From the NCBI GenBank assembly GCA_020072655.1, contig JAIQGH010000024.1:1-39198 (forward strand): 39,198 nucleotides of DNA. Reading direction: 5' to 3'. Shown piece by piece: positions 14,154 through 32,143 of this stretch. The notes below the pieces were generated by a model. It ran no database searches, was not told the origin of the DNA, and worked only from the letters and a program-made list of their open reading frames with translations. The translations under genes were made by a program, and so were the position numbers. How positions within the stretch are numbered: position 1 is the stretch's first letter; each line of letters opens with the position of its first letter. The stretch comes from Terriglobia bacterium (GTDB lineage: Bacteria; Acidobacteriota; Terriglobia; UBA7540).

Positions 14154-14909
14154 CTATGGCTGCCCGTAGAGTGGACCGGACGGCGTGGGGTTATCGTAGT
14201 CTCGACCGTACTTGTTCTTGTGGACAAGCAGGAGGTTATCCGACGCGGCCACATGAATCACCCCGAGGGAAGCGGAGTTCCCTGAAACAGTGATTTCGTG
14301 GCCAAGGCTGCTGAGTGTCTCCGGCAGACACCTCTCGTACCACACCTTAAGAAGGTAACGGCCGGGAGGGACGCCGGAGATTTGAATTTCCCCGGAGGCA
14401 TTGGAAATGCCGTAGAAAGGCGTATCCAGCACGAGCACGACCGCGCTCATTTCCGGATGTATGTTGCAGAAAATATAGCAGACGCCGGGCCGATCAAACC
14501 TCACGGTGCGCGTGCTCCCCGCCTCATAAAGCCCCAAGTCAAAACGCTTCCCATCGAAGAGCGAGAACACGTTGTGGAAGAACGGATCAAGGTTGGGGAA
14601 TTGAACAGCAGCACCAACCGGCACCACCAGCAGGTGTGGAGCAAAGCGTTTCTGTTTCTGAACAATGCGAAATCGCGACGACTCCCCGCGATGATCCGCC
14701 CCCTCGCGGTGAACCGCCGCCGTGTCTAACGGTACGAGCCAGACAACCACGTCGGAGCCATCGGCGTGCTCAGCCTTAGAGGCTCCGGCCCGTACCGTGA
14801 CCTTTCCGGTCACCGTCAACTCTTGCGCCCAGGCTGACCCGCAAAGGCAGAGCATCAACAGCATTTGCGACGCCAGCTTGCACACCTTCGCCTTGGGCCG
14901 CTGCATCAT
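14154..14909 (-). CDS. secreted cupredoxin-like protein with carboxypeptidase-regulatory-type tail
   Basis: An exported protein of about 251 residues. A signal peptide (MLLMLCLCGSAWA, then QE) is followed by a plastocyanin/azurin-like fold: FPNLDPFFHNVFSLF supplies His112 and YIFCNIHPEM supplies Cys148, His151 and Met154, a type-1 copper set. After it, YGISNASGEIQISGVPPG resembles the carboxypeptidase-regulatory/B-type repeat that accompanies such periplasmic copper proteins. ATG 14909 shares one base with the stop of the preceding barrel gene (TGATG), so the two are translated together. It probably acts in the periplasm in electron transfer or as a copper-binding partner of the barrel; the substrate is unknown. 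Confidence 0.75.
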   Translation of the reverse strand: MMQRPKAKVCKLASQMLLMLCLCGSAWAQELTVTGKVTVRAGASKAEHADGSDVVVWLVPLDTAAVHREGADHRGESSRFRIVQKQKRFAPHLLVVPVGAAVQFPNLDPFFHNVFSLFDGKRFDLGLYEAGSTRTVRFDRPGVCYIFCNIHPEMSAVVLVLDTPFYGISNASGEIQISGVPPGRYLLKVWYERCLPETLSSLGHEITVSGNSASLGVIHVAASDNLLLVHKNKYGRDYDNPTPSGPLYGQP

Positions 14910-16504
14910 CAAAAGAGTACCCCGACACTCAGGTTTACGTGGTCAGCGGACACCTTGGAAGCGTAAATGTGTGACGTCCACAGCCGCCGGTATTCGGCCC
15001 CAAAGAGGATGTTGGAGCGAGCACGATAGATGACGTTCACGAACCCGCTCTGGTTTCGGTTAATCGTCGGGTCGGCGTAGCTGGTGCTGTTCGAGAAGCG
15101 CTCCAAGTCGCGGTCGAAGGGAACATCCTCCCCGAAAGCTGTGTTGAACTCGAGCCTTTCGGTAGGCTTGAATTTGAACTGTGACCACCCGCCAACGGTG
15201 TCCAAGCCCAGAACGGAAGTCTGGGGGTCTGTGAGATTCCCGCTGAATATGGCACTGCGACCGGTCCCCCCGCCGAGGCCACCCAGCGCACGACCCCAGT
15301 AGAACTCTCCGGCCAGCGAAAACCAAGGCCCTAGCGGAATACTCCAATCAGCGGTTCCGGCCCAGCCGTCCACGTTTCTGCCGAATCCCCAATCCTGACG
15401 GGAATAGTATCCGCCCGCACCCAAGGCAAGCGTTTGTCCCCAAGCTGTCCGGCTCCAGGCTGCGCGAGCGGCGTACGCCGGCTGGCGGCCTCGCTCGCCG
15501 GCCTGCGCATACCGGTAGGACTGGGCGTACGGGGGCTCTCCCGTAAGTGGGTCGAGAATCCCAACCTGGAAGGCCAAGTGCGACGTATCGGAAAGCGCCA
15601 CACGCCGCTCGACCCGCACTTGGGGCGTCCAAACCCATAAGTTTCCCGAGTAGGATAATGCTGGGGCTGCTAGTGAGGCGAGCGAGGCCGGTGAGAGAGG
15701 TGAGAAGAACGGGGCGTCCTGCCCGGCCACCACCGACGTGGTCTTCCAATCCAGGCTGACGCGCGCCGTACGCATCCGAACCAGCCCGGCCACGACGCCG
15801 TCAGGCGCATTGGGAAACCCGCCGAAGAAATCAAATTGGACGTCGGCGGTCGTCCGTGCACCGGCAAGCGTTGGGCCGAACACTTCCAGGCCCAACTGTG
15901 ATTGGCGCACGGTGCCACCGAAGTCACCCGCGGAATCGAAAGCCGTCCTCGGCCGTGCCAAGGTGGGCAAATCCTGGTTGTCTACTTGGCCCCGGTTGGC
16001 AAAGAGGTTGAGCAGCACGATGCCCGAAAGCCGTACACGGTACTTGGACGCGCTCTCGACTTTCGTCTGGTATTGCTCATTGATCTTCGCGCCCAGGAGC
16101 TGTTGCTCTTCCTCGACGTGCCCCAGGCGCTGTGCTACGTCCTGGTTGGACGACTGCTGACTTCCTCCCCCTCCCTCATCAGGACCTGCGGCGGGAGCGT
16201 TCTCTGCTTGCAGGGCGGCTGGTCGCTCCGTCAGCTTCTGGGAGAGCAAGGCTAGTTGCTCGCGCGTCGCGCTTACCTCCCGTCGCAATTCAGCCGACTC
16301 TTCGCGCGCTCGCGCCATTTCTGCACGCGTTTCCGCGAGGGCGGCCTGGAGTTGGCGGATTTGGCTCGCCAATTCCTCCGGCAAGAATGCCGGCGCGGCC
16401 GAAGGCGTTCCTTCCGAGGCCGCCTGGGCTGCGAGCGCGGCCGTCCACAGGATGACAAGCACAGCCAGACCTATCGCCGAACGCGCGAATCTCTCCCGCT
16501 TCAT
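14909..16504 (-). CDS. outer-membrane beta-barrel (porin-like) protein with N-terminal coiled coil
   Basis: A 531-residue exported protein. A signal peptide (LAVLVILWTAALAAQA) is followed by a heptad-like coiled coil at about 45-97 (QIRQLQAALAETRAEMARAR onward) and a Gly/Gln-rich linker. Alternating amphipathic strands then run to a C-terminus ending VNLSVGVLF, where the final Phe is the outer-membrane insertion signature. The arrangement resembles DcaP/OprP-like trimeric porins with a periplasmic coiled coil. GAGGTGAGC precedes the ATG. A TATAAT sits about 100 bases upstream. The cupredoxin gene follows with one base of overlap, suggesting linked function, for example copper or small-molecule uptake. 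No substrate can be named from sequence. Confidence 0.75.
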   Translation of the reverse strand: MKRERFARSAIGLAVLVILWTAALAAQAASEGTPSAAPAFLPEELASQIRQLQAALAETRAEMARAREESAELRREVSATREQLALLSQKLTERPAALQAENAPAAGPDEGGGGSQQSSNQDVAQRLGHVEEEQQLLGAKINEQYQTKVESASKYRVRLSGIVLLNLFANRGQVDNQDLPTLARPRTAFDSAGDFGGTVRQSQLGLEVFGPTLAGARTTADVQFDFFGGFPNAPDGVVAGLVRMRTARVSLDWKTTSVVAGQDAPFFSPLSPASLASLAAPALSYSGNLWVWTPQVRVERRVALSDTSHLAFQVGILDPLTGEPPYAQSYRYAQAGERGRQPAYAARAAWSRTAWGQTLALGAGGYYSRQDWGFGRNVDGWAGTADWSIPLGPWFSLAGEFYWGRALGGLGGGTGRSAIFSGNLTDPQTSVLGLDTVGGWSQFKFKPTERLEFNTAFGEDVPFDRDLERFSNSTSYADPTINRNQSGFVNVIYRARSNILFGAEYRRLWTSHIYASKVSADHVNLSVGVLF

Positions 16505-16654: not shown

Positions 16655-17713
16655 TCAACGCGAGACGTCCGGTGGTTGAAGATGGAGAGAGCACACGCAG
16701 CGGCGGCAGATCGGATTCGTCGCGACGTCCAGGTGGGCGCGGAACTCCACCATCTGCGGGCTGTTGAGGATCTCAAGCAGAGGCGCGTCGTGAATGTTCC
16801 CCAGCGCCGGATGAAAGAAACAGGGCCGCAGGCTGCCGTCGGCCTCGACGACGGCGGAGACCCAGGGGGCGTTGCAGCGCGGAGCTACGGGCTCGACCTG
16901 CCCCAGTTGCGCACGGAAATGCCTCACAATACGCCGCAGGCTTTCTGCGTTCTGTGCCACAAAGCCGGTTGCGATGGCCTCGCGACACTCTTCCAAAAGC
17001 GCCTCGACTTCGCGGCCGAGTTCCTCGGTTTCTTGGGCATCTAGCGCCACACTTCCCTGCCGCTCCGACGGCCAGCCGGCGGGTCTATTGAATGCCGCGG
17101 AGGTAACGTCGGCGGCCAGGAAAGAAATCGAATTGAGCTGCAAGTACTTCGCCGTCCGCACAATGGCGCGGAGGGACCGGTGATTGCCTTTCTGAACTGT
17201 GCACCGAGCTGCCACCAGGATATCAGGTCGGATTCGGCGCAGCGCGGCGATGCCCCGCGCAAGCCGCTCGAATGCGCGCGGGACTCCCCGGATCCGGTCG
17301 TGGATTTCCGGCGGGCCGTCCAGCGAGACAATGACGTCGTCCAGGTGCTCGGCGACCATGCGTGCCTTTCGCTCCAGGAGAAGGCCCGCCGTCAGGAGCG
17401 TTAGTCGAATCCCCTCGCCACGACAGAGTTGGCTCAACTCCGCGAGATCGGAATGCATCAACGGCTCGCCGCCCGAGAAAACAATCCATTGGACTTTCAA
17501 GGCACGCAGAGATTCCCGATGCGGCTCGAGGTCTTCCGCTCGGATTTCGCGCACCTGGCGAATTCTCCAGATGTCGCACATCACGCAACGACAATTGCAG
17601 CGGTTATGGGGGAGGAGAAGGAGAATAGGCAAAGTGTGAATGTGATGCGGCGAGTCCCCCGGCAAGGCGGCAGCGGAGGCGGAGGCGTTCTCAACTTCAC
17701 AAAGGCTGCTCAT
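16655..17713 (-). CDS. radical SAM protein with SPASM/twitch-like C-terminal Cys motif
   Basis: A 352-residue radical SAM enzyme and the last gene of the nine-gene operon. The 4Fe-4S site is Cys39-x3-Cys43-x2-Cys46 in RCNCRCVMCDIW, followed by FSGGEPLMH (SAM-binding GGE) and DDVIVSLDGP. The C-terminus has Cys at RCNAPW and RPCFFHP and a final CRRCVC, arranged like the auxiliary cluster of SPASM or twitch proteins (MoaA, PqqE, AlbA relatives). Such enzymes modify peptides or small molecules by radical chemistry. No precursor peptide gene is visible next to it. ATG 17713 overlaps the amidohydrolase stop by four bases (ATGA), so the two are coupled. Lacking a B12 domain, it differs from the other four radical SAM proteins here. 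Confidence 0.85.
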   Translation of the reverse strand: MSSLCEVENASASAAALPGDSPHHIHTLPILLLLPHNRCNCRCVMCDIWRIRQVREIRAEDLEPHRESLRALKVQWIVFSGGEPLMHSDLAELSQLCRGEGIRLTLLTAGLLLERKARMVAEHLDDVIVSLDGPPEIHDRIRGVPRAFERLARGIAALRRIRPDILVAARCTVQKGNHRSLRAIVRTAKYLQLNSISFLAADVTSAAFNRPAGWPSERQGSVALDAQETEELGREVEALLEECREAIATGFVAQNAESLRRIVRHFRAQLGQVEPVAPRCNAPWVSAVVEADGSLRPCFFHPALGNIHDAPLLEILNSPQMVEFRAHLDVATNPICRRCVCSLHLQPPDVSR

Positions 17714-18993
17714 GCGCTCACCTGCTTGCCGGCGAGACGGATCGATTCACCCAGATAGGCTTTGCTCACCTTAATCAACCCTTCGACCGGCGCGCGAACC
17801 CAACGCTCGGTACCTTCGACCAAAAGACATGCTAGGCCGTTCAGAGCGCTCTTCGGCCAACGCTCGGCCAATTGCGGAGAGGCCAATGCAAGTCGGCCGC
17901 CGACGATTACCGCATGAATCTCCTTGAAGCTAGCCTGCACCAGCGAATCTGCCGGCGAATCGCCTCGCCACTTCAGTACCGTCAAGTCCGCAGTAGCCCA
18001 TTTGCGAAGACTGCCTTCCCCTTCGCCAAGCCGCAGGACATCTGCCGCCCCTGTAGTGACCATCGCGTAAAGCAACTCGGAACTGACCTGAAAATGCTCG
18101 TGAGCCGCCCTGAGCTCGTCGAGGAGGTCTCCCTGAGCGGTCAGCGCCGAGTCACTGCCCAAGGCAATTCGTTGGTGCCTTCCGACCGCGCGTGCCTCGA
18201 GGGTCTTCCCCAGCGTAAAGAAGTTGGAGGTCGGACACCAGACGAGCGCCGCGCCGCGCTTGTGGACCAACTCGTGCCCCGCTGAGTCCAGCCCCACACC
18301 ATGCACGATGACCGTGCGCGAGTCGAGGGCGCCCATTCGGTCCAGAAGAAAGATTTCCTCTTGACTGCGCGCATCGGTTCCCTCGCCGAGATGCAGGATG
18401 AAGGGCAGGCCTGTGGGCGTCTTCCGAAACGCCTGGGCGACGCCCGTTCCGAAGGAAAGCGAGTGCGTCCACCCGAAACGCTTGACGACCCGCACCGGAA
18501 AGCCGGAGTCGAAAACCTCTTCATACGGGTTGTGGTGGCAGACGGTAGTCACGCCACAAAGCAGGTTCTTCAGGGCACCCCACCCTAGTCGGACGGGCTT
18601 CGGGGCCGCAATGTGCTCGCGGATCGGCGAGCGATCCGGTTGGTAAATGTCATTGGCCCACTCTGTGACACTCGTATACGGTCCGTGACCGAGCCGCGGA
18701 AAGAGATTGAACTCCAAATGATCATGCGCATTTACGAGGCCCGGCAGGATCAAGCATCCGGTCAGGTCAACGGTCTCAGAGTTATCTGCGAGTCGGTGGC
18801 TCGTTGTGCCGACTTCCCGGCCACTCGGAAACTCGACCACTGACCGGATGTGGCCATCCTCGATCTCGATGTCGGCCTGCACGGCCTCCCGCGCATTGAG
18901 CGCGACTCGACCTCGGATCAGTCGAAGGGCCCCTCCCACAGCCTCGTCACCAAGGGAGGATGTTTCTTCAGACTGGGTCAAATCTGCCAGCAT
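17710..18993 (-). CDS. amidohydrolase superfamily protein (TRZ/ATZ, cytosine-deaminase-like)
   Basis: A 427-residue metal-dependent hydrolase or deaminase. The metal site is seen as H90-x-H92 in LVNAHDHLEF, His200 in ILHLGEG, His230 in IVHGVGL and Asp280 in LGSDSAL, which is the full subtype III pattern. The N-terminal and C-terminal segments (IEIEDGHIRSVV, IHAVIVGGRLAL) form the usual beta-sandwich. Substrates in this group are ring or amide C-N bonds (chloro-triazines, guanine, adenosine, imidazolones). Its place inside an operon of radical SAM and methyltransferase genes suggests a step on an N-heterocyclic or amide intermediate; this is inference. It is spaced about 25 bases from the methyltransferase gene before it and overlaps the next gene. 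Confidence 0.85.
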   Translation of the reverse strand: MLADLTQSEETSSLGDEAVGGALRLIRGRVALNAREAVQADIEIEDGHIRSVVEFPSGREVGTTSHRLADNSETVDLTGCLILPGLVNAHDHLEFNLFPRLGHGPYTSVTEWANDIYQPDRSPIREHIAAPKPVRLGWGALKNLLCGVTTVCHHNPYEEVFDSGFPVRVVKRFGWTHSLSFGTGVAQAFRKTPTGLPFILHLGEGTDARSQEEIFLLDRMGALDSRTVIVHGVGLDSAGHELVHKRGAALVWCPTSNFFTLGKTLEARAVGRHQRIALGSDSALTAQGDLLDELRAAHEHFQVSSELLYAMVTTGAADVLRLGEGEGSLRKWATADLTVLKWRGDSPADSLVQASFKEIHAVIVGGRLALASPQLAERWPKSALNGLACLLVEGTERWVRAPVEGLIKVSKAYLGESIRLAGKQVSA

Positions 18994-19017
18994 GGAACTT
19001 CATCCAAGCTTTGAGTC

Positions 19018-19734
19018 TCAATGTTGTTGAAATTGGGCAACCCAAATCGCCGGCACCCCGCAGACCGCATCAAACAAGTCGCCCTTGTCGGCGCTCCGAA
19101 AGATTTTCCTCTCCGGCTCACTAAGACTTGGCTCAAGCAGTTGCCGCAGTTCGAGGCCGTGGTCTGCAAACGCTGCGCAAACCTCCTCAATCGAGTAGCG
19201 GCTGCTGGTGATTTCAATGACCGAGCCACCGCCGCGGAAGGCGCGATGCCATCCCCTCGCGTGCGCTGAGGGGTGGAAGTCGGACACAAAGACTTGAGCG
19301 CCCCGTCGAAGGACCCGTCCGATTTCATCAACGAATCTGGCAATATCGAATAGGTACGCCACGGCAAAGGAACAAATTGCCAGGTCCGCAACACCCGGAC
19401 GGAATGGCATCGCTAAGCAATCACCAAGCACCAAGCGGCCCCGCATCGCCGGTTTTGCCCCAGCCCGCGCGAGCATCGGGGCGCAGAAGTCCAGCCCGGC
19501 GCCGGCAGAGGCACCGCGTGCCATGAGTCTTTCCAGCCAGCGGCCCGTCCCGCAGGCCAGGTCGAGCACAGACTTCCCTCGCAGGTCGGGCAACAAGGGG
19601 TCCAGGGTTCGCTCCTCGAGGGCCAGGAGCGCGTTGGGCGTCTCCTCGTAGCTTGGGGCCCACAGGACATGGCCCTCGTGGGGCGACACCCAGCGGGGCG
19701 CATCGAACGGGAGTGAGCGGGAGTCTGCAGACAA
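19018..19734 (-). CDS. SAM-dependent class I methyltransferase
   Basis: A class I (type 11-like) methyltransferase of about 238 residues. Motif I is VLDLACGTGRW, with GLDFCAPML as the acidic loop and ICSFAVAYLFD and LRRGAQVFVSDFHP as later motifs. There is no ATG near the start. A TTG at 19732-19734 preceded by GTGAGGCGG fits best, just after the upstream gene's stop at 19742; an alternative TTG at 19776 would overlap that gene by 35 bases. The C-terminal part (YSIEEVCAAFADHGLEL) is typical of small-molecule methylases. Substrate unknown; the operon context suggests the same pathway as the B12 radical SAM enzymes. Confidence 0.82.
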   Translation of the reverse strand: MSADSRSLPFDAPRWVSPHEGHVLWAPSYEETPNALLALEERTLDPLLPDLRGKSVLDLACGTGRWLERLMARGASAGAGLDFCAPMLARAGAKPAMRGRLVLGDCLAMPFRPGVADLAICSFAVAYLFDIARFVDEIGRVLRRGAQVFVSDFHPSAHARGWHRAFRGGGSVIEITSSRYSIEEVCAAFADHGLELRQLLEPSLSEPERKIFRSADKGDLFDAVCGVPAIWVAQFQQH

Positions 19735-19741
19735 AGCCGCC

Positions 19742-21205
19742 TCACAAGCTTTCAAGCTTGGGCTTGCGGAGATCAATCAACCGCTGCGCCCATTGCAGCT
19801 CGAAAGGAAAAGAGTAGAACGCGAGCCGATACCGCCAGGCGCTCAGCGCCTTCAAAAGTCGGCGCCCCCAAGCCGGCAGGCGAATGTCCTGCACGGTCGG
19901 CCAGCGCGACGCCACAACCAGTTCAAAGTTGTCGATCCGCCGCTTGAGGCGGGGGCGGAGCCAGGGCATGGCGGGATCCTTCCGCACGGTGAAGTTGAGC
20001 CACTGTTTAGTGGCCCACTCATCCGGCGTTGTGGGGAATTGAACTTGATTGTCCACCCCGCCGTACATGTGCTCGCGTTGCGGTACCGGGACGTAATGCT
20101 GGACAATGATCTCGGCCTCCGGATTGATCCTTTTGATCTTGCGAATGAATTGCAGGCATTCGTGCGTGTCGCGGTCGGGGTCGCGCGGATTGCCGACGAC
20201 AAATGAGAATTCGGGAGTGATACCAAATTGGCGAATGCGCCGAGCCAGCTCCACCGTCTGCTCAGCCCGAAGTTGCTTGTTCATTTCCTTCAGCACCCAA
20301 TCGGAGCCCGATTCAGCGCCGAAAAAGATCATCGTGCAGCCCGACCGGCGGATGGCCCCAAGGGTCGCGTCGCTGAAGCCCAGCACAATGTCAATTCGTG
20401 CCTCGCACCACCAGCTCATCTGGAGAGGTGCAATCCGGTCGGCCAGCTCGCGGGCGTGGTCCTCACGTAAGAAGAAATTGTTGTCGTAGAACTGCATGGC
20501 ATCGACGCCGTACGCGCTCTTCAGGTGGCCAAGGATGGCTTCCGTCCGGGAAGGTGATTCCATCTTTTCGCGACTTCCGTAAGCCGAAATCACGCCGCAG
20601 AAATTGCAGCGGAAGGGGCAGCCCACACTCGCCTGGTGAACCGCCGTCCGTCGGCCGAGAAACGTGGGGAGTATGTATTTCCCGGCGTCGAGCCGATGGT
20701 ATGGGTACCAGGGAAACGCGTCTGGGCTCTTCATCGCGCGTTCCGGGTTGTGATGATGTTGCCCGCTGCGGTCTTTGAACGAAAGGCCGCGCACACTCTC
20801 CAACCCCCGCGCTCCCTTTAGCGCTCCCAGAAGCTCAAGAAAGGTGTCTTCGCCCTGCCCGCGAACGGCAAAATCGACGTAGGCAGCATTGAGCGCTGCG
20901 TCAGTGTAGATGGATGGGAAGTAGCCGCCCCAAACGATAGGAACACGCGGAAAAGAAGCTCGGATCTTCCGGCACGTCTCCACGGCGGCCACCATCTGCG
21001 GACCAGGCATCACCGAGACGGCCAGCAGTTCCACGGCATGGGTGTGCATGAGTGCCTCGAGGGTCGCATCCGGCGTTGGGTCCACATTGCCATCGACGAT
21101 GACGTACTCTTCTCGGCCCTCCAGCACGGTCGCCAGGGAGAGAACCGCTAGAGGGAATCTGCGGCTGCGTGGCTTGGTCGACTTGGGATGGTAAAGAACG
21201 ATCAT
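19742..21205 (-). CDS. B12-binding-domain radical SAM protein (copy D)
   Basis: A 487-residue class B-type radical SAM protein. Residues 1-130 form a Rossmann-like cobalamin-binding domain (VPIVWGGYFPSIY, FAVRGQGEDTFLELL). The radical SAM barrel has Cys196-x3-Cys200-x2-Cys203 in VGCPFRCNFC, then QFYDNNFF and FFGAESGSDWVL. The C-terminus ends in FYSFPFELQWAQRL, a feature shared with the protein encoded at 26107-27615. Family members methylate unactivated carbons or remodel rings. ATG 21205 overlaps the previous gene's stop by four bases. It belongs to the same operon as the three other B12 radical SAM genes. The product is not predictable. Confidence 0.87.
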   Translation of the reverse strand: MIVLYHPKSTKPRSRRFPLAVLSLATVLEGREEYVIVDGNVDPTPDATLEALMHTHAVELLAVSVMPGPQMVAAVETCRKIRASFPRVPIVWGGYFPSIYTDAALNAAYVDFAVRGQGEDTFLELLGALKGARGLESVRGLSFKDRSGQHHHNPERAMKSPDAFPWYPYHRLDAGKYILPTFLGRRTAVHQASVGCPFRCNFCGVISAYGSREKMESPSRTEAILGHLKSAYGVDAMQFYDNNFFLREDHARELADRIAPLQMSWWCEARIDIVLGFSDATLGAIRRSGCTMIFFGAESGSDWVLKEMNKQLRAEQTVELARRIRQFGITPEFSFVVGNPRDPDRDTHECLQFIRKIKRINPEAEIIVQHYVPVPQREHMYGGVDNQVQFPTTPDEWATKQWLNFTVRKDPAMPWLRPRLKRRIDNFELVVASRWPTVQDIRLPAWGRRLLKALSAWRYRLAFYSFPFELQWAQRLIDLRKPKLESL

Positions 21206-22218
21206 TGAGTTTCGACGGTTCCCCAGGCGATGAGAAACTTCGCGGGCTCACGACGGCCCAGGAGTCGGGCGCGCAGCGGTCGCAGCGCCCAGCTCAGTCC
21301 ATGCCAGGGCCGGCAGATTTGCCAAGCGAGGCCCAGCTCGCGTGTCAATTCGTTCATCGTCTCCGCGGTCAGGAACTCCCGACTGGAAATGCTGTCCGAC
21401 CTGAACCCATACGTTTCCTGAAACTTTGCCCGCCGCTCCTCCACCATTTGCCGTCCACTTTCCTCTCGCTTGTAGAAGGGGGAGTCCACAATCAGGATGT
21501 GTCCGGGTGGACGGAGGCAGCGCAACGCTTCCTTGAGCGTCCGCACATAATCTTCAGAGTAGTGAAACGAAGCGTTGAAAATTGCGACGTCGAACGTCCC
21601 CTCGTCGAAGGGCAGTCGGTCCATTTCCGCTTGGAAGCGCGGGAAAGGTTCCGACAAGTAATTCAAGTAGTGACGAGCCGCACCAAGACCGTCTTGGTCG
21701 TCAAGCTGCAGATCCACCGCCGTGGGGCGATGCCCTCGCAAGGCCAGGCGGTAGCTCATCCAACAGTTGCCGGCGCCAATGTCCAAGACGTCGGCACGGT
21801 GAGGGAAAATCTCCTCGAGCACCGGCAGGATTTTTTGCTCGAGAAACCGAAAACTCCGTCCCCGAATCTTCCACTGCCAGGAGTTTCGGCCCGTCAGGTC
21901 CTTGTAAGGCAAGGACAGGTAGAAGTGCGCCCCGGCGGATCCACGGCCCTCACGGGTTCGGACGGCCTGATACTCACGGATAAATTGCTCGAATCGTTGT
22001 TCGCGCGACGGGGCCAGGGCCTTCCATGTCCCGCATAGCGTTTTGAAAACGAAGCCACACTCGGAGCAGCCTAGCTGCGAAGACGTGTCCAAGGGGTCCA
22101 TCGGTCCCACGCTCTCCGCACACACCGGGCACCTTAACCGCAGCGTTCTTCTGGAAGAGTCCACCCGAGGTGGCAGGGTTGGCGAAAGGCTCGGCTCTGT
22201 TGCGAATGTCGTGCTCAT
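21202..22218 (-). CDS. methyltransferase with N-terminal zinc ribbon
   Basis: A 338-residue class I methyltransferase. An N-terminal zinc ribbon is formed by CPVC (about residues 30-33) and CSEC (about 51-54). The Rossmann core has VLDIGAGNCWMSYRLA (motif I), PTAVDLQ and FDVAIFNASFHY, followed by GHILIVDSPFYKREESG. Zinc ribbons of this kind occur in methylases that act on lipid-linked, sugar or antibiotic substrates. GGAG six bases before ATG 22218 and the four-base overlap with the preceding methyltransferase stop show coupling. A nearby radical SAM gene (19742) also overlaps its end by four bases, so three consecutive genes are translationally linked. Confidence 0.82.
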   Translation of the reverse strand: MSTTFATEPSLSPTLPPRVDSSRRTLRLRCPVCAESVGPMDPLDTSSQLGCSECGFVFKTLCGTWKALAPSREQRFEQFIREYQAVRTREGRGSAGAHFYLSLPYKDLTGRNSWQWKIRGRSFRFLEQKILPVLEEIFPHRADVLDIGAGNCWMSYRLALRGHRPTAVDLQLDDQDGLGAARHYLNYLSEPFPRFQAEMDRLPFDEGTFDVAIFNASFHYSEDYVRTLKEALRCLRPPGHILIVDSPFYKREESGRQMVEERRAKFQETYGFRSDSISSREFLTAETMNELTRELGLAWQICRPWHGLSWALRPLRARLLGRREPAKFLIAWGTVETQ

Positions 22219-23039
22219 GTTGCGCTCCGCTCAAATATCAATAGGTAATGATCAGCGAATGTTCGAGCAATGGGGGCTCGGCCCAAGTGAGAATCAATGC
22301 TCGCTGCCAGGCGAAAGCCGCGAGGGACCCGTCGCACCACAGGCTCAAGACCGGTAGGAGGGACAAGCACGCCAATCCCCCTCCACTCCTTGAGGCGGAA
22401 AAAGGGCGAGAACAATCGGACCAATTCCCGCACCGACGGATAGTGAACGCGCAGTGTCGGGCCGTTTTCCCAATCAAGCAGCGTCTCGCCAGACCGGAGG
22501 CGTCTGAACGCTTTGCGAAGATCGCCGCGCAGGGCGTGCCAAGCCATTTCCCACAAACAGAAACGGCCGAAGACACAGACCATCGCTTTGGAACCCGGCC
22601 TTAAGAGGTGAGCGAGGCTCCTTGCCGCTCGCCCCAAGTCGTCGACGCAGTTCAATCCGGCAAAATTGGACAGCAGGCCATCAAATGTTCCTGCCGGTCC
22701 GACTGAAGCGACTTGTTCCGTCGCGAGAGTGCGTAGCTCGACGGAATGCAGCATTCCCGCCGTTTGCAGGCGTCGGCGCGCCACGGCGATCATCCTGGCC
22801 GATGAGTCGCAAGCCACGACCTTGAGTCCGCGTTGTGCGAGACGGACTGCGTCCACTCCCGTGCCGCAGTTGATTTCGAGAATCCGCTGACCAGGATGGA
22901 AGACGCGATCCATCTCTCGCCAGACCTGGGAACGCTGCGCCTTCCCCACAAGAGACTCCGTGAAGACGGCATCGTAGGTCTCAGCCCGAGCATCAAAGGG
23001 GGCGGTGTTTAGAGAGTGAGGAAGAACGAAGCTAGCCAT
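22215..23039 (-). CDS. SAM-dependent class I methyltransferase
   Basis: A 274-residue methyltransferase with FDARAETYDAVF at the N-terminus (as in UbiE/type 11 proteins), motif I ILEINCGTGVDAVRLA, VVACDSSARM and the post-motif FDGLLSNFAGLNC. The C-terminal third (LFSPFFRLKEWRGIGVLVPP) resembles the cap region of methylases that act on small or isoprenoid-like acceptors. The start at ATG 23039 lies six bases after the stop of the B12 radical SAM gene, with GGAGGCGTGAG upstream. The substrate is unknown. Confidence 0.82.
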   Translation of the reverse strand: MASFVLPHSLNTAPFDARAETYDAVFTESLVGKAQRSQVWREMDRVFHPGQRILEINCGTGVDAVRLAQRGLKVVACDSSARMIAVARRRLQTAGMLHSVELRTLATEQVASVGPAGTFDGLLSNFAGLNCVDDLGRAARSLAHLLRPGSKAMVCVFGRFCLWEMAWHALRGDLRKAFRRLRSGETLLDWENGPTLRVHYPSVRELVRLFSPFFRLKEWRGIGVLVPPTGLEPVVRRVPRGFRLAASIDSHLGRAPIARTFADHYLLIFERSAT

Positions 23040-23045
23040 CGCGAC

Positions 23046-24446
23046 TCACGCCTCCGCTTCGGAAAAGGCAAGCTGCAAGCCCGCGCGCGCCTGAGCAATC
23101 CTTTGCCGAAGCTCGGCAACCAAAATACCCTCCGAGCTGCCGCCTTCCCGCTTCATCGCGCGCATCAACTCGACCTCCGACCGTAGGAGTTGGTCGGCAC
23201 ATTGGTAGAAACGGCGCGAGTGCCGGCCTCGAATCCGAAAGTCCCGGTCGGAGCCATCGGCCCAGCCATTCGCGCTCATCACGCGCTCGGCGACCTGCTC
23301 GAAATAGGGTGTCCCCTTGATCGGATAAGCCACCGTGGTGAGGAACACATCCGGATTCGAGCGCTTCACGTGTTCGACGGTAGCCTCAATATCCTCGAGT
23401 TGTTCGCCCTCGTAGCCCCACATCAGGAACATCCCCGTCTCGATGCCGCGCGCCTTGCAGAGGTCTACTGCGGTTTGCACTTCCTCAACGGTCACGCCGC
23501 GCTCCATGGCATCCAGCACCCGCTGCGAGCCGCTCTCTGAGCCAATCCATACTCGCAGGCAGCCGAGTTGGGCCAGGGTGTCCGCGATGCGCGAATTCAG
23601 CCGGTCCGCTCGTGTGATGCACTCAAAGGGAATTCTCAGGCCGCGCCGTTCGAGTTCTGCGGCGTATTGAGACAGCCAGCCGGGATGAATCGTGAAGACA
23701 TCGTCGGCAATCCAGATCATGTCCGGCTCGTACCGACGCAGGATTGATTCCAGCTCATCCGCCACCAGGGCCGGCTTCCTCCGCCGGTGTGTCTTGCCAT
23801 ACACGGCGTGGCTACACCAGCGGCAGTCGTAGGGGCAACCGCGCGCCGTGATCAGAGAAACCGACCCCATGCCGTGATGCTTCCGCCACGTGTCAACGTA
23901 CTGCTCGATGCCAATTGCCTCCCGCGCCGGCCAAGGTTGCGCGTCGAGGTCAGGCATCTGCGGGCGGGGCGGCGTCCGATGAACCTCACCGGACCCGCCG
24001 CGAAACGCAATCCCCTTTACCGCCTCCAGGTCGGAGGTGTTGCCCGTGCGCAGAGCGGGAAGCAGCTCTTCCAGCGTAATCTCGCCCTCGCCAACAACTA
24101 CCACGTCAGCTCCGGCGGCCAGATATTCTGTTAGGTAAGCCGCCGGCTCAGGTCCGCCCACCACCGTCTTCCAGCCGGCTTGCTTGGCCACGCGCAGAAT
24201 CTCGACGACCTTGGGACGCGTCATGAGATTGGCATAGACTCCAAGAATCGAAGGGGGAGAGCCGTGGAGGAGGTTGAATAACTCCTGGCGCGAAGAGAAA
24301 GTAGTGTCAAACACCTCGACGTCAAAGCCTCTTGACCGCAGATGGGAAGTGAGGTAGAGGATGCCGAGAGGCGGGTAAGGCTTCATGATCTGAAGCTCTT
24401 TCGCGTCCTCGTGTAAGAAGTAGCCGTGCGTTAAGAGGAGATCCAT
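23046..24446 (-). CDS. B12-binding-domain radical SAM protein (copy C)
   Basis: A 466-residue protein with an N-terminal cobalamin-binding domain (LLLTHGYF, then PYPPLGILYLTSHLRSRGF, then VVVGEGEITLEELL) and a radical SAM barrel with Cys204-x3-Cys208-x2-Cys211 in RGCPYDCRWC, WIADDVF and WIGSESGSQRVLDAMERG. The PYPPLG motif is common to BchE, HpnR and other B12 radical SAM methylases or cyclases. It is clearly paralogous to the gene immediately upstream in transcription (24510-26009), sharing the N-terminus and the SGSQ-x-[VI]-LDAME stretch. ATG 24446 is preferred over an adjacent TTG and follows GGAAGTGAG. Reaction unknown; C-methylation or ring formation is the family expectation. Confidence 0.87.
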   Translation of the reverse strand: MDLLLTHGYFLHEDAKELQIMKPYPPLGILYLTSHLRSRGFDVEVFDTTFSSRQELFNLLHGSPPSILGVYANLMTRPKVVEILRVAKQAGWKTVVGGPEPAAYLTEYLAAGADVVVVGEGEITLEELLPALRTGNTSDLEAVKGIAFRGGSGEVHRTPPRPQMPDLDAQPWPAREAIGIEQYVDTWRKHHGMGSVSLITARGCPYDCRWCSHAVYGKTHRRRKPALVADELESILRRYEPDMIWIADDVFTIHPGWLSQYAAELERRGLRIPFECITRADRLNSRIADTLAQLGCLRVWIGSESGSQRVLDAMERGVTVEEVQTAVDLCKARGIETGMFLMWGYEGEQLEDIEATVEHVKRSNPDVFLTTVAYPIKGTPYFEQVAERVMSANGWADGSDRDFRIRGRHSRRFYQCADQLLRSEVELMRAMKREGGSSEGILVAELRQRIAQARAGLQLAFSEAEA

Positions 24447-24509
24447 CAAGTCTCACTTCCCGCGTCGCAAGGACCTTGCACGATACGCCTCGAAGGAACC
24501 GCCGTCGGA

Positions 24510-26009
24510 TCAAGCCGGCGTCGCGGCCGAGCAAGCGAGGACCGGTAGAAGCGTGGGATCCGCGTTCCGGCAGACTTTCTCTAGCTGTCCCACCCTCGTC
24601 CACAGCTCCTTCACCCGCGCAGAGTCAACCCTCGCCAAAGAGTTGGCGCTCCGGCAGCCAGGAGGTTTCCATCCCTCCGGCACAGCCCACGTGGCGGCCT
24701 CGGCGTGGAGAGCGTCATGCAGGGCTCGGTAAAACTCGCTGGTGTAAGTTCCCCTGAACATCATGGAGAGGTCCTGGCTATCCAGCCAGTTCGTTTTAGC
24801 GCCCAACTGTTCCCGCACGCGCTCGTAGAACGCGGTGCCAGGCAGCGGGTAGGACACCGAAACGCCGATATCGTCCGGCCGCGTTTCACGAACCAATTCG
24901 ATGGTTTTCTGAATGTCGGCCCAAGTCTCCCCGGGGTACCCAAACTGGAGGAAGAAACAGGCGCGCATGCCGGCGCGACGCAGGCTCTCTGTTGCCCTCC
25001 GAATCTGCTCGACTTGGGTGCCCTTCTCCATGGCATCGAGGATCTGCTGGGAGCCGGACTCGGCACCCATCCAGACTTCCATGCACCCGGCGCGGCGCAG
25101 AGCTTCGACGACTTCCTCCTTCATCAGGTCAACCCGGGACTGCATTTTGAAGGGAACGGCAGCTTGTCGTCGTTGGACCTGGTCGGCAAGATCAAGTACC
25201 CATCGTGCCTTCAGACCGAAGATGTCGTCCGCAAACCAGAGGTGCTCGGCGCCGTAAGACTGCTTGAGCACTTCCATCTCGCTGGCGACACTCGCCGCGG
25301 AGCGCAGGTGGAACGAGTCCCCGTAAATGGGCTTCGCACACCAGTTGCACCGGTAAGGACAGCCACGGCTCGCCACCACGTTGAGGGAAAAGAACCCGTG
25401 CGCGGCTTTCCAGGCGTCACGATAACGGTCGATATCCACCAAGTCGCGGGCCGGGATCGGCAGCGCGTCGAGATCGCGCATCAAGGGGCGCCGGGGTGTG
25501 CGGTGGACGGGGCCGCTGTCGTCTCGAAGGAATGCGAGTCCGGGTATTTCCTCGGCATCTCTCGCTAGCTCGCCGGTCAGGGATTCGACCAGTTCGAGGA
25601 GCGTCCATTCCGCTTCACCCAAGAGCACATAGTCCGCGCCCGAGCGGAGGTAGTCCGCCAAGTGGTCGGAGGCGTCGGAGCCGTTGACGGCGACGAGAGC
25701 ACCCGCCGCACGTGCCGTCCCGATCATTCCAAAAGCCACTTCGCGCATTCGACTCAGACACATCTTGGACAGATAGTTGAAATTGTCCTCATAGATAGCC
25801 ACGACCCTCGGACGGTGCCGGGCGACGGCTTCCGCGAACTCGCGCTCGGGATCGTCCAACATGCTGTCGAAGAGTGCCACTCGGAAGCCCTTCTCGCGGA
25901 GCAAGGCGGCGGCGTAGAGTGTCCCGAGGGGAGGATAGGGCTGCATCCTCCGCGCCTGTTTCCGGTCGAAGAAAAGATGGTAGGAGTGCGTCAGCAAAAC
26001 GTCAGTCAA
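24510..26009 (-). CDS. B12-binding-domain radical SAM protein (copy B), TTG start
   Basis: A 499-residue B12 radical SAM protein. The open frame extends upstream to 26147, but the paralogue at 23046 aligns from VLLTHSYHLF, and a TTG at 26007-26009 has GGAGGAG just before it. I therefore use the TTG, which leaves about 97 bases after the previous gene. Motifs are QPYPPLGTLYAA, VLLGEAEWTLLELV, Cys217-x3-Cys221-x2-Cys224 in RGCPYRCNWC, WFADDIF and WMGAESGSQQILDAMEKG. The C-terminal tail (about residues 420-499) is longer than in its paralogue. It follows copy A in transcription order and precedes copy C by 60 bases. Confidence 0.85.
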   Translation of the reverse strand: MTDVLLTHSYHLFFDRKQARRMQPYPPLGTLYAAALLREKGFRVALFDSMLDDPEREFAEAVARHRPRVVAIYEDNFNYLSKMCLSRMREVAFGMIGTARAAGALVAVNGSDASDHLADYLRSGADYVLLGEAEWTLLELVESLTGELARDAEEIPGLAFLRDDSGPVHRTPRRPLMRDLDALPIPARDLVDIDRYRDAWKAAHGFFSLNVVASRGCPYRCNWCAKPIYGDSFHLRSAASVASEMEVLKQSYGAEHLWFADDIFGLKARWVLDLADQVQRRQAAVPFKMQSRVDLMKEEVVEALRRAGCMEVWMGAESGSQQILDAMEKGTQVEQIRRATESLRRAGMRACFFLQFGYPGETWADIQKTIELVRETRPDDIGVSVSYPLPGTAFYERVREQLGAKTNWLDSQDLSMMFRGTYTSEFYRALHDALHAEAATWAVPEGWKPPGCRSANSLARVDSARVKELWTRVGQLEKVCRNADPTLLPVLACSAATPA

Positions 26010-26106
26010 GGCCGCTCCTCCATAACGCCCGCAAGGATTCGCGCCAGCCTGGCATTGCCTCTCGCCACAAGAACTCCATCCTTTGCTGACCCTGTCATAG
26101 TCACCT

Positions 26107-27615
26107 TCACGAACAGCTTGCCGCTGCGGGCTCGAGCAGCTTGGCATCCACGGAAGGCTTGGCTACCGCCATCCGTCGCTTGAGGCGGCGGTTGATCCAC
26201 AACTCGAAAGGAAAGGCATAGAAATCGTGCTCCAATCGCCAACGCGCCGGAAGGCTGATAGAGCGTTGCAGAGCTTGGAGGAAAGGCGAAGGCTCGTAGT
26301 GGGCGATGGGCTCCCGGTCGAACGCAATGCGCAGGTAATCCCTCATCGTCTGCACGCGCGCGTGGTCTTTGCCTTGCAACCAGGGCAAGACGGTGTAGCG
26401 AGGGAAATAGTCGGACCAGCCCTCGAGCGACTTGGGCAGCTCAATACCGAGCTCCCGAACATGCTGCATGATCGGGGAGCCCGGATAAGGCGTGAAGATG
26501 TTCGTCCAAAACTCCGTGCCCGGATAACGCCGGCAAACGTCCAGGATGAAGCGGATGGTCTCGTGCCGCTCCTTTCGACCTTCGCCGGGATAGCCGAAGA
26601 TGATGTTGAAAGAGGGACGAATCCCTGCCTTCAGGCAGCGCTCGGCCGACTGGTAGATGGAATCGAAATCCTGAAATGTCTTGTTCATCAACTTCAGGAT
26701 CTTGGGCGAAGCGGAATCTACGCCCTGGCAGATCTGGTGCAGCCCGGCACGGCAAAGCAGGCGCAGGTTGTCCTCGGTCAGGCGCGCCGTGAGGTTCGTC
26801 GTGGCCTGGATACTCCAGCGGAACCGTGCGCCCACCCGTACCAAGCCCTCGGCGATGCGCACGGCACGGTCTATGTCCACCAGGAAGTTGTCGTCCACGA
26901 CCCACAGCATTTCGAGGCAGTAGCGGGTCGCCAGGTCGAAAGTTTCCTCGACGACCTGTTCAGCCGGAAGCGCGTTCCAATTGCGGCCGTACACTCCCGC
27001 GTTGGTGCAGTAAGAACAGTTGAAGGGGCAGGCCAAACTGGACGTATACATGGCCCAACGACGGCCGCAGATCCGCTCGTAGGCATCGAAATCAGCCAGT
27101 TGGTAGGCCTTCGGCGGAAGTTCCACGATGGGACGAAGAGGTCGAGGCGGCGTGAAGACCAGCGTACCATCGCGCTTGAATCCCACTCCTTGCACATCGT
27201 CGAGCGGAGCTCCTGCCTCCAGACGCTGCACGATTTCGAGCATGGCGTCTTCGCCTTGCCCGCGCACTACGACGTCCACGCAGTCAGCCTGGAGTGTCTG
27301 GTCAGGCAAAAGGGAGGGATGCCAGCCGCCCAAAATCACCGGGAACTCCGGGTTCCACACCTTGACGGCTCGCGCCACCTGCACCGTTTCCCGGATCATG
27401 GGGCCCGTCACCAGCGAGATCCCCAGGCAGAGAGCGTCCTCGACTTCCCTGAGGACCCGCCGCTTGAAATCCGGCGTAATGGTCGAATCGACGATGGCGA
27501 CGCTGTAGCCAGCCCGCAGGAGCGGGGTCGCTACCGCGAGGATGCCCAGCGGCGCAGTCGCCTCGGAGCTGGAGAATGCGGGGAAAAAGAAAACGACTTT
27601 CTTGCGGCCTTTCAA
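26107..27615 (-). CDS. B12-binding-domain radical SAM protein (copy A), first gene of the operon
   Basis: About 502 residues. The B12-binding domain has APLGILAVATPLL, VILGGWHPSLLP and VVVRGQGEDAMLEIV. The radical SAM site is Cys196-x3-Cys200-x2-Cys203 in LACPFNCSYC, then WVVDDNFL and QGVDSASPKILKLM. The end FYAFPFELWINRRLKRR matches the tail of copy D. There is no ATG at the 5' end: a TTG at 27613-27615 with AAGGGGC upstream is the likely start, and the frame stays open to a second TTG at 27669. In the 120 bases further upstream the minus strand has TTGACA (27719-27724), a possible -35 box without a clear -10. As first gene, its promoter would serve the whole operon. Confidence 0.84.
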   Translation of the reverse strand: MKGRKKVVFFFPAFSSSEATAPLGILAVATPLLRAGYSVAIVDSTITPDFKRRVLREVEDALCLGISLVTGPMIRETVQVARAVKVWNPEFPVILGGWHPSLLPDQTLQADCVDVVVRGQGEDAMLEIVQRLEAGAPLDDVQGVGFKRDGTLVFTPPRPLRPIVELPPKAYQLADFDAYERICGRRWAMYTSSLACPFNCSYCTNAGVYGRNWNALPAEQVVEETFDLATRYCLEMLWVVDDNFLVDIDRAVRIAEGLVRVGARFRWSIQATTNLTARLTEDNLRLLCRAGLHQICQGVDSASPKILKLMNKTFQDFDSIYQSAERCLKAGIRPSFNIIFGYPGEGRKERHETIRFILDVCRRYPGTEFWTNIFTPYPGSPIMQHVRELGIELPKSLEGWSDYFPRYTVLPWLQGKDHARVQTMRDYLRIAFDREPIAHYEPSPFLQALQRSISLPARWRLEHDFYAFPFELWINRRLKRRMAVAKPSVDAKLLEPAAASCS

Positions 27616-27791: not shown

Positions 27792-29360
27792 TTATAGCGT
27801 CTTGAGAAACGCGATGAGGGCTTTGCGCTCCGCCTCTGACAAATCCAGGCCGAACGGATGTCCTGGGACGGCACCGCGCGTCGTCCCGGAGCCGCGGAAG
27901 CCGGTGGGGACGTAATCGTCGCGGACCCGGCGCGGGTCAAACCAATCTTCCAAGGTCTCCACGGAGCCGCTGTGGCCGAACGGTCCACGGAGCCAAACCC
28001 CGCGCAAGGAAGGCACCTTGTAGTAGCCGGTTCCTTCGCGAGTTTTCAAGGCCAGCCCGGGATCCGTTCCGACATCGATGGGAAGGATGTCGAACCGCTT
28101 GAGATCATCGTCCGGGGGGTGAAAGCCCGAGACCGGGGTCAGCTTGTTGTTGGTGTAGAGCGGCGGCGTGTGGCACATGCCGCAGCCTTCCCGCTCGAAG
28201 GTCTTCTTGCCCCGCGCTGCGAGAGCGTTATAAGGGTTCGGATTCGTCGGGGGTTGAAGTGAGTACAAGTAGAGAGCCAGCGCATAGAGCTCGGCATCGC
28301 TATAGCGGAGTTGCGTCGCAGGATCCGGCAGCGGGTCGAGCGTCCGAAAATCCAAGTATTGGTCAAGACGTAGGCCACCCTGAACGAGTGCCGCGTAACG
28401 CATCACGTCTCCAATGGAGCGGTTGCGAACCAAGCCGGTATGATCGAAATATCGAATGTCGCGCAGCCCGAACAGGCTGGGGATCTGGGGAGGAAAGAGG
28501 AGGCTGGTGTTGACCCGCGCCGCCACACCGGGAGGAATGGCGTCATGGGCGGCGGCAATTTCTTCCAACGACAGATGCTCGACCGCCCGATTGGGGTCCG
28601 GCAGAAGCCACGGAACACGGAAAGCCAGACTTCGCTCCTTGCGCGCGTCCTGCAAAAGCTGGAGCGGGTCGGGCGCGTGGGCCGCGAAACGTCGCAAGGC
28701 ATAGGCGGCTGCCCGGTCGTAGGGCAGGTTCCCCTGCGCTCCCTTGACGGTCGTTCCCTCCGGAAGGACCCGTGCATGGCAGGTCGCACAGGAGCCGGAC
28801 CCGAGCTCGACCTTGCCTTTTTCCCGGATCACGTAGCGGACGAACGGCAGGCTACCGTCGCGGGCGACGGGTACCCTCAGCTCGTTGTACCAGGCCGGAT
28901 TCCGCACATCCGACATGTTGATGAAAAGTTCGCTGTCGAAAGTGATGGGCGAGTCGAACACAACTTCGCCGGCTCGAATCCATTCCGCTTCGGATTTAAG
29001 CTGTGCGGGGTCGAAGGCAAGCTGCGGCTCCTGCTGCCGGAGCCATTCCATATACCCGCGTGGCTCCCGGTCCGGACGGAAGACGCGATAGCTTTTGTAT
29101 ATTACGCGAGCAGGTATTCGATAGTAGTACTCGGACGATCCATGCTTCGGCGACGCCGCAGCGTTGGCGAGTGGTACTTCTAAGGAGGCCAGTGACTCAT
29201 CATCCCAAGTCCTGGGAATCGCAACGGACCCTTCCCGCGCTGGCACGGTTGGCGCGCGTCCGGCGGCGGTGGCAAGAATCAGCCCGCACCCCAAAACGGA
29301 TGCCAAACCAGCCAGGGACGAACGGACGGTTCCTCTTCTCACATTCCGACGCCCTTCCAT
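27792..29360 (-). CDS. di-haem c-type cytochrome, cytochrome c peroxidase/MauG-like
   Basis: An exported c-type cytochrome of about 522 residues. From ATG 29360 there is a signal or anchor segment (LAGLASVLGCGLILATAAG), then two haem c sites: SCATCH at residues 191-195 and GCGMCH at about 393-397. The C-terminal part (KVPSLRGVWLRGPFGHSG, VETLEDWFDPRR, FGLDLSEAERKALIAFLKTL) matches the di-haem peroxidase/MauG superfamily. The N-terminal 180 residues before the first haem are longer than in classical CcpA and I do not recognise them. The frame continues upstream to 29429, overlapping the O-antigen ligase end, but the inner ATG makes a better signal peptide. Its partner and substrate are unknown. 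Confidence 0.8.
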   Translation of the reverse strand: MEGRRNVRRGTVRSSLAGLASVLGCGLILATAAGRAPTVPAREGSVAIPRTWDDESLASLEVPLANAAASPKHGSSEYYYRIPARVIYKSYRVFRPDREPRGYMEWLRQQEPQLAFDPAQLKSEAEWIRAGEVVFDSPITFDSELFINMSDVRNPAWYNELRVPVARDGSLPFVRYVIREKGKVELGSGSCATCHARVLPEGTTVKGAQGNLPYDRAAAYALRRFAAHAPDPLQLLQDARKERSLAFRVPWLLPDPNRAVEHLSLEEIAAAHDAIPPGVAARVNTSLLFPPQIPSLFGLRDIRYFDHTGLVRNRSIGDVMRYAALVQGGLRLDQYLDFRTLDPLPDPATQLRYSDAELYALALYLYSLQPPTNPNPYNALAARGKKTFEREGCGMCHTPPLYTNNKLTPVSGFHPPDDDLKRFDILPIDVGTDPGLALKTREGTGYYKVPSLRGVWLRGPFGHSGSVETLEDWFDPRRVRDDYVPTGFRGSGTTRGAVPGHPFGLDLSEAERKALIAFLKTL

Positions 29361-29425
29361 TTTCCTTCGTCGTACCGCCCCTTCGACGTCTGGGCGGCCA
29401 AGGGATGGTGACGGGGGGTAATGAC

Positions 29426-30820: not shown

Positions 30821-30827
30821 GTGAAGG

Positions 30828-32054: not shown

Positions 32055-32121
32055 TTTCACTCTCCCTTCATTACTCGGATACCATGGCGGAGAGGGCGCA
32101 CGGGTCAGCGCACTGTAGTGA

Positions 32122-32143
32122 ATTTGTAAAGGATTTGTTAGAC
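32122..32143. promoter_or_regulatory. 11-base direct repeat, candidate OmpR/PhoB-type operator
   Basis: ATTTGTAAAGG followed directly by ATTTGTTAGAC: two 11-base half-sites in tandem, the spacing preferred by OmpR/PhoB-family regulators. It lies between the divergent barrel gene (start 32054) and the response regulator gene (start 32246). The first half-site recurs inverted at about 35026-35036. Autoregulation by the adjacent regulator is the simplest reading, but this is inference. Confidence 0.4.

Follow-up and report, generated by a model that had tools for sequence, protein, structure and literature searches.

A cassette of nine enzyme genes, all on the minus strand, was found at positions 16655-27615 of the window (the whole stretch of 39,198 nucleotides that was analyzed). 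It codes for five radical enzymes, four of them with a vitamin-B12 domain, and it looks like one unit serving a single pathway. In our preferred reading, to which we give a probability of about 0.38, the nine genes form one dedicated pathway that works with no carrier protein, NRPS, PKS or precursor peptide, and whose substrate is most likely a small molecule of the purine/pyrimidine nucleoside or sugar type. The product is best read as a metabolite of nucleoside or sugar type that is methylated and probably also glycosylated.

All nine ORFs described in the sequence-only reading are present, and the genes overlap by exactly four bases at 21202/21205, 22215/22218 and 17710/17713. The assignment of four B12 radical SAM proteins, three methyltransferases, an amidohydrolase and a SPASM-like protein was borne out by Pfam, in which every domain call on the nine proteins was above the gathering score. 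For RS1-RS4, scores were 42.8-62.4 bits for B12-binding (cut-off 32.1) and 49.5-76.6 bits for Radical_SAM (cut-off 29.5). In each of the four, a B12-binding domain at the N terminus precedes a radical SAM core that carries CxxxCxxC, the arrangement of class B enzymes; these cysteines are invariant in the RS2 and the RS4 alignments. RS2 and RS3 share 38% identity.

Table 1. Cassette genes and neighboring genes in the window.
Feature	Coordinates	Strand	Description
RS1	26107..27615	-	B12-binding + Radical_SAM (Pfam); TTG start at 27615
RS2	24510..26009	-	B12-binding + Radical_SAM (Pfam), AprD4/OxsB-like fold; start moved from 26147
RS3	23046..24449	-	B12-binding + Radical_SAM (Pfam); start ATG 24446 or TTG 24449
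MT1	22215..23039	-	class I SAM methyltransferase (Pfam)
MT2	21202..22218	-	class I SAM methyltransferase (Pfam); CPxC...CxxC zinc-ribbon-like segment at N terminus
RS4	19742..21205	-	B12-binding + Radical_SAM (Pfam)
MT3	19018..19776	-	class I SAM methyltransferase (Pfam); fused to AH in many Acidobacteriaceae
AH	17710..18993	-	Amidohydro_1 (Pfam); COG0402-type deaminase/amidohydrolase
SP	16655..17713	-	Radical_SAM + SPASM (Pfam), SPASM domain shortened
Cupredoxin-like / CarboxypepD_reg-like secreted protein	14154..14912	-	syntenic
Porin-like protein	14909..16504	-	syntenic downstream of SP within same family
Cytochrome-c-peroxidase-like protein	27792..29429	-	variable neighbor; missing in several relatives
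Wzy_C / O-antigen-ligase-like membrane protein	29426..30961	-	syntenic upstream of RS1 within same family
DUF5777 outer-membrane beta-barrel protein	30828..32237	-	syntenic
Tandem HprK-related kinase-like protein	35063..37186	+	recurrent cassette neighbor
NTP_transf_5 nucleotidyltransferase	37120..38532	+	recurrent neighbor of both cassette variants

RS2 most likely starts at TTG 26009 rather than at ATG 26147, because a GGAGGA ribosome site is found there, homologues start at this point and the 44 residues preceding it are disordered in the structure model. RS1 would hence end about 100 bases before RS2, without overlap.

The complete order RS1-(RS1b)-RS2-RS3-MT1-MT2-RS4-MT3-AH-SP is kept in 36 other non-redundant genomes. 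Most of these belong to the class Terriglobia of the Acidobacteriota, and cultured Edaphobacter and Granulicella are among the 36. A sub-order of the full arrangement is kept in 41 of the 51 named loci having at least five of the genes. The arrangement is therefore not due to chance, and the genes that had been read as an operon are conserved, not scattered, in relatives. In Granulicella mallensis X5P3 the nine genes are complete but divided between two loci. RS1 orthologues (64-82% identity) occur in every full cassette; at 67% identity or more, RS1 was found in 17/396 Acidobacteriota genomes, all 17 of which are AH-positive. The most widespread member is RS2 (35/396). A shorter variant of the cassette also exists, and the cultured Chryseolinea serpens carries a diverged version. 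In a search of plasmids, AH had no match and RS1 matched one distant Calothrix protein only.

In many Acidobacteriaceae MT3 and AH are a single fused protein. AH shows the HxH, HxxE, H and D set in a TIM-barrel amidohydrolase that is typical of COG0402 (ATZ/TRZ) enzymes, and its catalytic/metal residues H90, H92, H201, E204, H231 and D281 are invariant in 40/40 homologues. The conserved order, the MT3-AH fusion, the complete but split set of G. mallensis X5P3 and the constant association of RS1 with AH all support a single dedicated pathway.

None of the cassette proteins reached an NCBIfam equivalog cut-off, in agreement with the earlier remark that no named pathway with this gene set was recognised; no named counterpart was found. 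The best scores were for BchE (146.9 bits, cut-off 481) and HpnJ (137.6, cut-off 577.6), and HpnR, AprD4, ladderane and PhpK equivalogs were likewise under their curated cut-offs. The nearest solved folds of RS2 were AprD4 (Z 29.8) and then OxsB (Z 27.5), ranks that lie close together within the radical SAM superfamily, where fold likeness does not fix the substrate. AprD4 and OxsB act on sugar carbons. Since these two are its closest likenesses, the modeled RS2 need not be a methylase. The nearest PDB match of SP was the nucleoside enzyme BlsE (E 1.5e-19).

In Acidobacteriaceae, both the full cassette and the shorter variant are accompanied by a specialised paralog of GTP cyclohydrolase II. 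This paralog is an extra gene copy, scores above the curated RibA cut-off and forms one clade across full and short variants (support 100/100). Beside the full cassette it was seen only in four closely related genomes, and it was not detectable in the window's genome (96% complete) or in relatives such as G019 (95%), in which the cassette is present. The idea that GTP cyclohydrolase II always performs the first step was therefore rejected, and the chemical class of the product is proposed with moderate confidence only, because the window's genome shows no such gene. Three short-variant genomes have an additional copy of DHBP synthase as well; the one near locus L063 was rejected as a cluster member, as it belongs to a distant RibBA-type gene outside the cluster clade.

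In phyla other than Acidobacteriota, nucleoside-salvage genes adjoin the cassette. A purine nucleoside phosphorylase (PNP) gene directly precedes RS4-MT3-AH-SP in L090, and SP is followed by Cdd, Tdk, a nucleoside transporter and PNP in L098 and L104 and by Cdd, Tdk and a transporter in L103. Only a few lineages have these neighbors, which may be there by coincidence. Among the lipid, tetrapyrrole-like and N-heterocyclic products that had been suggested from the window alone, an N-heterocyclic or nucleoside product is the best supported, by the COG0402 deaminase fold, the GTP cyclohydrolase II paralog and the PNP and salvage genes. The tetrapyrrole suggestion rests on BchE-like scores of 109-147 bits (cut-off 481), which reflect general superfamily similarity.

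The starting point would be a nucleoside or GTP-derived precursor, which some lineages would obtain through the GTP cyclohydrolase II paralog and others from ordinary metabolism. RS2 may rearrange, deoxygenate or contract the carbon skeleton of the sugar, while RS1, RS1b, RS3 and RS4 would add methyl groups to unactivated carbons or form C-C bonds, and MT1-MT3 would add N- or O-methyl groups. AH would hydrolyse off a ring amino group directly after the MT3 step, since the two proteins are fused in many species; SP would carry out one further radical step. The final product might be glycosylated or incorporated into a surface glycan. The more specific proposal of a new class of hypermethylated, glycosylated, purine- or GTP-derived nucleoside-like products, made by four to five cobalamin-type radical SAM enzymes with no NRPS, PKS or RiPP logic and either displayed at the cell surface of soil Acidobacteria or exported from it, is tentative.

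The sequence-only reading had overlooked the glycan-type surroundings of the cassette and the nucleotidyltransferase and HprK-like proteins that recur as its partners. In other families, a GT87-like protein often takes the Wzy_C position upstream of RS1.

Glycosyltransferases are enriched near the cassette (10/109 vs at most 1/110 in controls), and Wzy_C, GT87, Wza, Wzz, Wzx and WecG proteins also recur beside it. Such surroundings suit a sugar product equally well, and the genes might belong to a cell-surface glycan pathway that makes or decorates an uncommon sugar or cyclitol (C-methylated, branched or deoxy) for exopolysaccharide or glycolipid, a product with no nucleobase; the best RS2 relatives (HpnJ, AprD4 and TIGR04295 'oligo') are sugar-linked. 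However, neither a sugar-nucleotide dehydratase nor an aminotransferase is encoded in the cassette, amidohydrolases of COG0402 typically hydrolyse bases or amidines, and the specialised GTP cyclohydrolase II, PNP and nucleoside-salvage partners would be left unexplained, so that we regard this alternative as rather unlikely. It is improbable that AH is a housekeeping enzyme, uninformative on the product, which deaminates by-products of the radical SAM enzymes and methyltransferases (5'-deoxyadenosine or S-adenosylhomocysteine). Its nearest folds are indeed MTA/SAH/adenosine deaminases (Z 35-36), followed by AtzA and isocytosine deaminase (33) and guanine deaminase (31), ranks within COG0402 that are close together and do not fix the AH substrate; in many species AH is fused to an SAH-making methyltransferase, and PNP adjoins its gene in L090. 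Yet the AH score for 5'-deoxyadenosine deaminase was 44 bits (cut-off 522), and the column tentatively matched to E84 of TM0936, the conserved ribose-binding Glu of MTA/SAH/5'-deoxyadenosine deaminases, has no conserved acid among the 40 AH homologues when the loop is aligned by hand on the W...P motif. Overall, AH is less probably an ordinary SAH deaminase.

Lipids are among the substrates of cobalamin radical SAM enzymes, Edaphobacter aggregans DSM 19364, which produces brGDGTs, carries the cassette (L070), and the enzymes that methylate brGDGTs are not named in the open-access papers covered. A membrane-lipid pathway, for instance one methylating or cyclising branched tetraethers or hopanoids, is nevertheless quite improbable, given scores below the HpnJ, HpnR and ladderane cut-offs, a patchy distribution (27/396 Acidobacteriota genomes, plus Bacteroidota and Chloroflexota) and the presence of a deaminase and a GTP cyclohydrolase II, which are out of keeping with it. 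A bottromycin-like RiPP pathway would match superficially in gene types (several radical SAM methylases, an O-methyltransferase, an amidohydrolase), and a lasso-type one could be suspected from the HprK-like and NTP_transf_5 proteins in the vicinity; against both, the short ORFs of 84 loci yielded only near-relative families or antisense artefacts and no conserved, lineage-spanning precursor peptide, and the cassette contains neither a YcaO (Pfam, nine proteins) nor a peptidase gene. This origin is very improbable, and the earlier statement that NRPS, PKS and peptide precursor are lacking agrees with the gene set. An anti-phage system was rejected, the matches being weak and general (PDC-M51A, mad2, pVip); SP matched the viperin pVip with 45.5 bits over the core only and has a SPASM domain.

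It is rare for a cluster to hold so many cobalamin-type radical SAM enzymes, whose chemistry is difficult to reach by other means. The cassette recurs as a clearly defined unit, with an order fixed enough for a single pathway, in a phylum that ranks among the most abundant in soil. Because it lacks both a core synthase gene and one for a precursor peptide, it probably offers little to detection tools that depend on them; no description was found in the open-access literature on radical SAM/cobalamin, amidohydrolase, Acidobacteria, GTP cyclohydrolase II, exopolysaccharide and brGDGT topics. Its presence in cultured Edaphobacter and Granulicella, and in diverged form in C. serpens, makes product discovery directly testable.

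The bottromycin cluster likewise combines several radical SAM methylases with a methyltransferase and an amidohydrolase, but it differs in having a precursor peptide and YcaO. The hopanoid proteins HpnJ and HpnR, BchE and the ladderane B12 radical SAM proteins have the same domain architecture as RS1-RS4, although the matches of 57-147 bits fall short of curated cut-offs of 360-650 bits. With the COG0402 deaminases (MTA/SAH, guanine and isocytosine deaminases, AtzA) AH shares the fold (Z 31-36.5) and six catalytic/metal residues; it differs in lying under every NCBIfam cut-off, in a family-specific HDHLE motif and in the invariant residues E94, W112, R135, H154, H177 and S178.

RS2 aligned with AprD4, the apramycin radical SAM diol dehydratase (PDB 6fd2), over 427 residues with 25% identity, and both have a B12-type N-domain and a radical SAM core. 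In contrast, the equivalog score was 113 (cut-off 500), and the cassette has no aminoglycoside genes and includes several RS paralogues and an amidohydrolase. OxsB and AlsB, which catalyse the ring contraction of oxetanocin and albucidin, differ from RS2 in sequence (16-17% identity) and in their OxsA-like HD phosphohydrolase partner, absent from the cassette, but share its cobalamin radical SAM fold; their substrate is a purine deoxynucleotide sugar (PMC13331322).

The nine minus-strand genes described in the sequence-only reading were recovered with the same coordinates and domains, and its three four-base overlaps are exact. The start of RS2, one of four B12-binding radical SAM proteins (RS1-RS4), was moved to TTG 26009, its most likely position, because a GGAGGA ribosome site precedes it, residues 1-44 counted from ATG 26147 have a pLDDT below 50 in the structure model, and homologues start at the TTG position in the alignment. 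The window also carries a separate one-carbon operon.

Features of the window, with strand and basis of assignment (MT, class I methyltransferase; AH, amidohydrolase; SP, radical SAM-SPASM protein)
Feature	Position	Strand	Basis
RS1	27615-26107	-	Pfam, above gathering score
RS2	start most likely TTG 26009 (or ATG 26147)	-	Pfam, above gathering score
RS3	24449-23046	-	Pfam, above gathering score
MT1	23039-22215	-	Pfam, above gathering score
MT2	22218-21202	-	Pfam, above gathering score
RS4	21205-19742	-	Pfam, above gathering score
MT3	19776-19018	-	Pfam, above gathering score
AH	18993-17710	-	Pfam, above gathering score
SP	17713-16655	-	Pfam, above gathering score
One-carbon operon	2447-9291	+	
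Thymidylate-synthase-like	within 2447-9291	+	by eye
Corrinoid protein	3439-4074	+	Pfam B12-binding and B12-binding_2
MTHFR-type protein	4191-5846	+	by eye
Methyltetrahydrofolate-corrinoid methyltransferase-like	5732-6649	+	by eye
Homocysteine-methyltransferase-like	6699-7634	+	by eye
RACo-like reductive activator	7771-9291	+	by eye
2-oxoacid:ferredoxin oxidoreductase-like pair (korA/korB-like), adjoining the operon	9464-12018	+	by eye

The nine genes form one conserved cassette with intact motifs. Of 40 genomes from the window's order, 9 contain MT2 (56-64% identity). Around these hits the other cassette genes follow in unchanged order, and the porin, cupredoxin-like, Wzy_C and beta-barrel genes that flank the cassette are usually shared as well. 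A profile search with AH added 80 loci from named genomes, most of them in the Acidobacteriota class Terriglobia, including Edaphobacter, Granulicella, Bryobacteraceae and Solibacter-type MAGs. The complete order occurs in 36 relatives after removal of duplicate records, about half of them with a second RS1-like gene (RS1b), and of the 51 named loci that contain five or more cassette genes, 41 keep a sub-order; the arrangement is not due to chance, and the genes are not scattered. MT3 and AH are a single fusion protein in many Acidobacteriaceae, which argues for successive steps.

The distribution is patchy: among 396 sampled Acidobacteriota genomes, AH was found in 27 and RS2 in 35; RS1 homologues with an identity of 67% or higher are present in 17, every one of which also has AH. 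Granulicella mallensis X5P3 retains the gene set despite a broken operon (RS2-MT2-AH-SP at locus L061, RS1-RS3-MT1-RS4-MT3 at L191). Locus L024 of genome G003 has the same flanks and a reduced cassette, RS1b-RS2-RS3-MT1-MT2-SP, lacking RS1, RS4, MT3 and AH.

Two sub-sets also occur on their own: RS2-RS3-MT1-MT2 without AH, sometimes with RS4 or SP, in other Acidobacteriota classes, and RS4-MT3-AH-SP in some Acidobacteriota and in KSB1 (L090), or RS4-MT3-AH in a Chloroflexota MAG (L093). Chryseolinea serpens carries both modules within about 20 kb. In a short variant found in Acidobacteriaceae the order is NTP_transf_5-MT1-GTP cyclohydrolase II-RS2-MT2-AH-UGT, and a GT87-like protein, an HprK-like kinase or both usually come next; this variant also regularly comes with a phytanoyl-CoA-dioxygenase-like (Fe/2OG) gene (L066, L073, L078, L135, L136, L137).

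A GTP cyclohydrolase II clade co-travels with the cassette. Genomes with the short variant have three or four copies of this gene, where most controls have two, and in genomes G133 and G376 an extra copy adjoins the full cassette. The cluster copies exceed the RibA cut-off and form one clade (support 100/100) across full and short variants, separate from the housekeeping copies. Three short-variant genomes have an extra DHBP synthase; its distance from AH is 7-8 kb in two of them and roughly 20 kb in the third. Nucleoside genes adjoin other loci: purine nucleoside phosphorylase (PNP) directly before RS4 in L090, Cdd-Tdk-nucleoside transporter-PNP after SP in L098 and L104, and Cdd-Tdk-transporter after SP in L103. 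In several distant loci, the gene next to RS2 encodes a protein with a nucleotidyltransferase fold.

The neighbourhoods are of glycan type: group 1 glycosyltransferases account for 10 of 109 cassette neighbours but for no more than 1 of the 110 control proteins, and NTP_transf_5 (5/109) and HprK-like proteins (4/109) were not among the families seen in at least two control proteins. In Acidobacteriaceae, small cupredoxin and cytochrome c genes lie between HprK-like and NTP_transf_5, upstream of the cassette (L149, 15046-15888; L150, 14944-15797); genes of the cupredoxin-like and cytochrome types are also present at the window's cassette.

In the preferred reading, the pathway starts from a small molecule of nucleoside or sugar type. 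RS2 would remodel the carbon skeleton of a sugar, while C-methylation or C-C bond formation may fall to the remaining radical SAM enzymes; MT1-3 would methylate heteroatoms, and AH would remove an amino group hydrolytically directly after MT3. The product might then be glycosylated or linked to the cell surface. What chiefly speaks against this reading is that GTP cyclohydrolase II was not detected in the window's own genome and several cassette-bearing relatives, so that a GTP-derived start is not general. The enzyme went undetected in G000 and its relatives G017, G019, G020, G013, G003 and G011, as did DHBP synthase in G000, which reflects either riboflavin auxotrophy in part of the window's family or MAG gaps.

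The strongest rival, a pure glycan-sugar product, shares the glycan-type neighbourhoods and has the co-travelling cyclohydrolase clade to account for. A salvage role for AH is less likely; a lipid product is less likely again, and least likely is a RiPP, no conserved precursor peptide having been found at the cassette loci. Edaphobacter aggregans DSM 19364 (L070), a known producer of branched tetraether lipids (brGDGTs), carries the full cassette; the brGDGT literature searched was not found to name the methylation genes.

None of the nine proteins reached an NCBIfam equivalog cut-off, and no description of the cassette was found in the open-access literature. We classify it as a cobalamin radical SAM biosynthetic cluster, assigned to no named pathway. 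The AlphaFold2 model of AH (pLDDT 92.5) is nearest to MTA/SAH/adenosine deaminases (Z 35-36.5), followed by AtzA and isocytosine deaminase (33) and guanine deaminase (31). Its six catalytic and metal residues do not vary among 40 homologues, and the family has invariant residues of its own (E94, W112, R135, H154, H177 and S178); the ribose-binding Glu of SAH deaminases is not conserved in the column matched to it by hand. The nearest solved sequence to SP is the cytosylglucuronate decarboxylase BlsE. The nearest solved folds to RS2 are AprD4 (Z 29.8), OxsB (27.5), MgmA (26.8) and TsrM (24.9); AprD4 and OxsB both work on sugar carbons, the former in an aminoglycoside and the latter, which does not methylate, in a nucleotide (PMC13331322).
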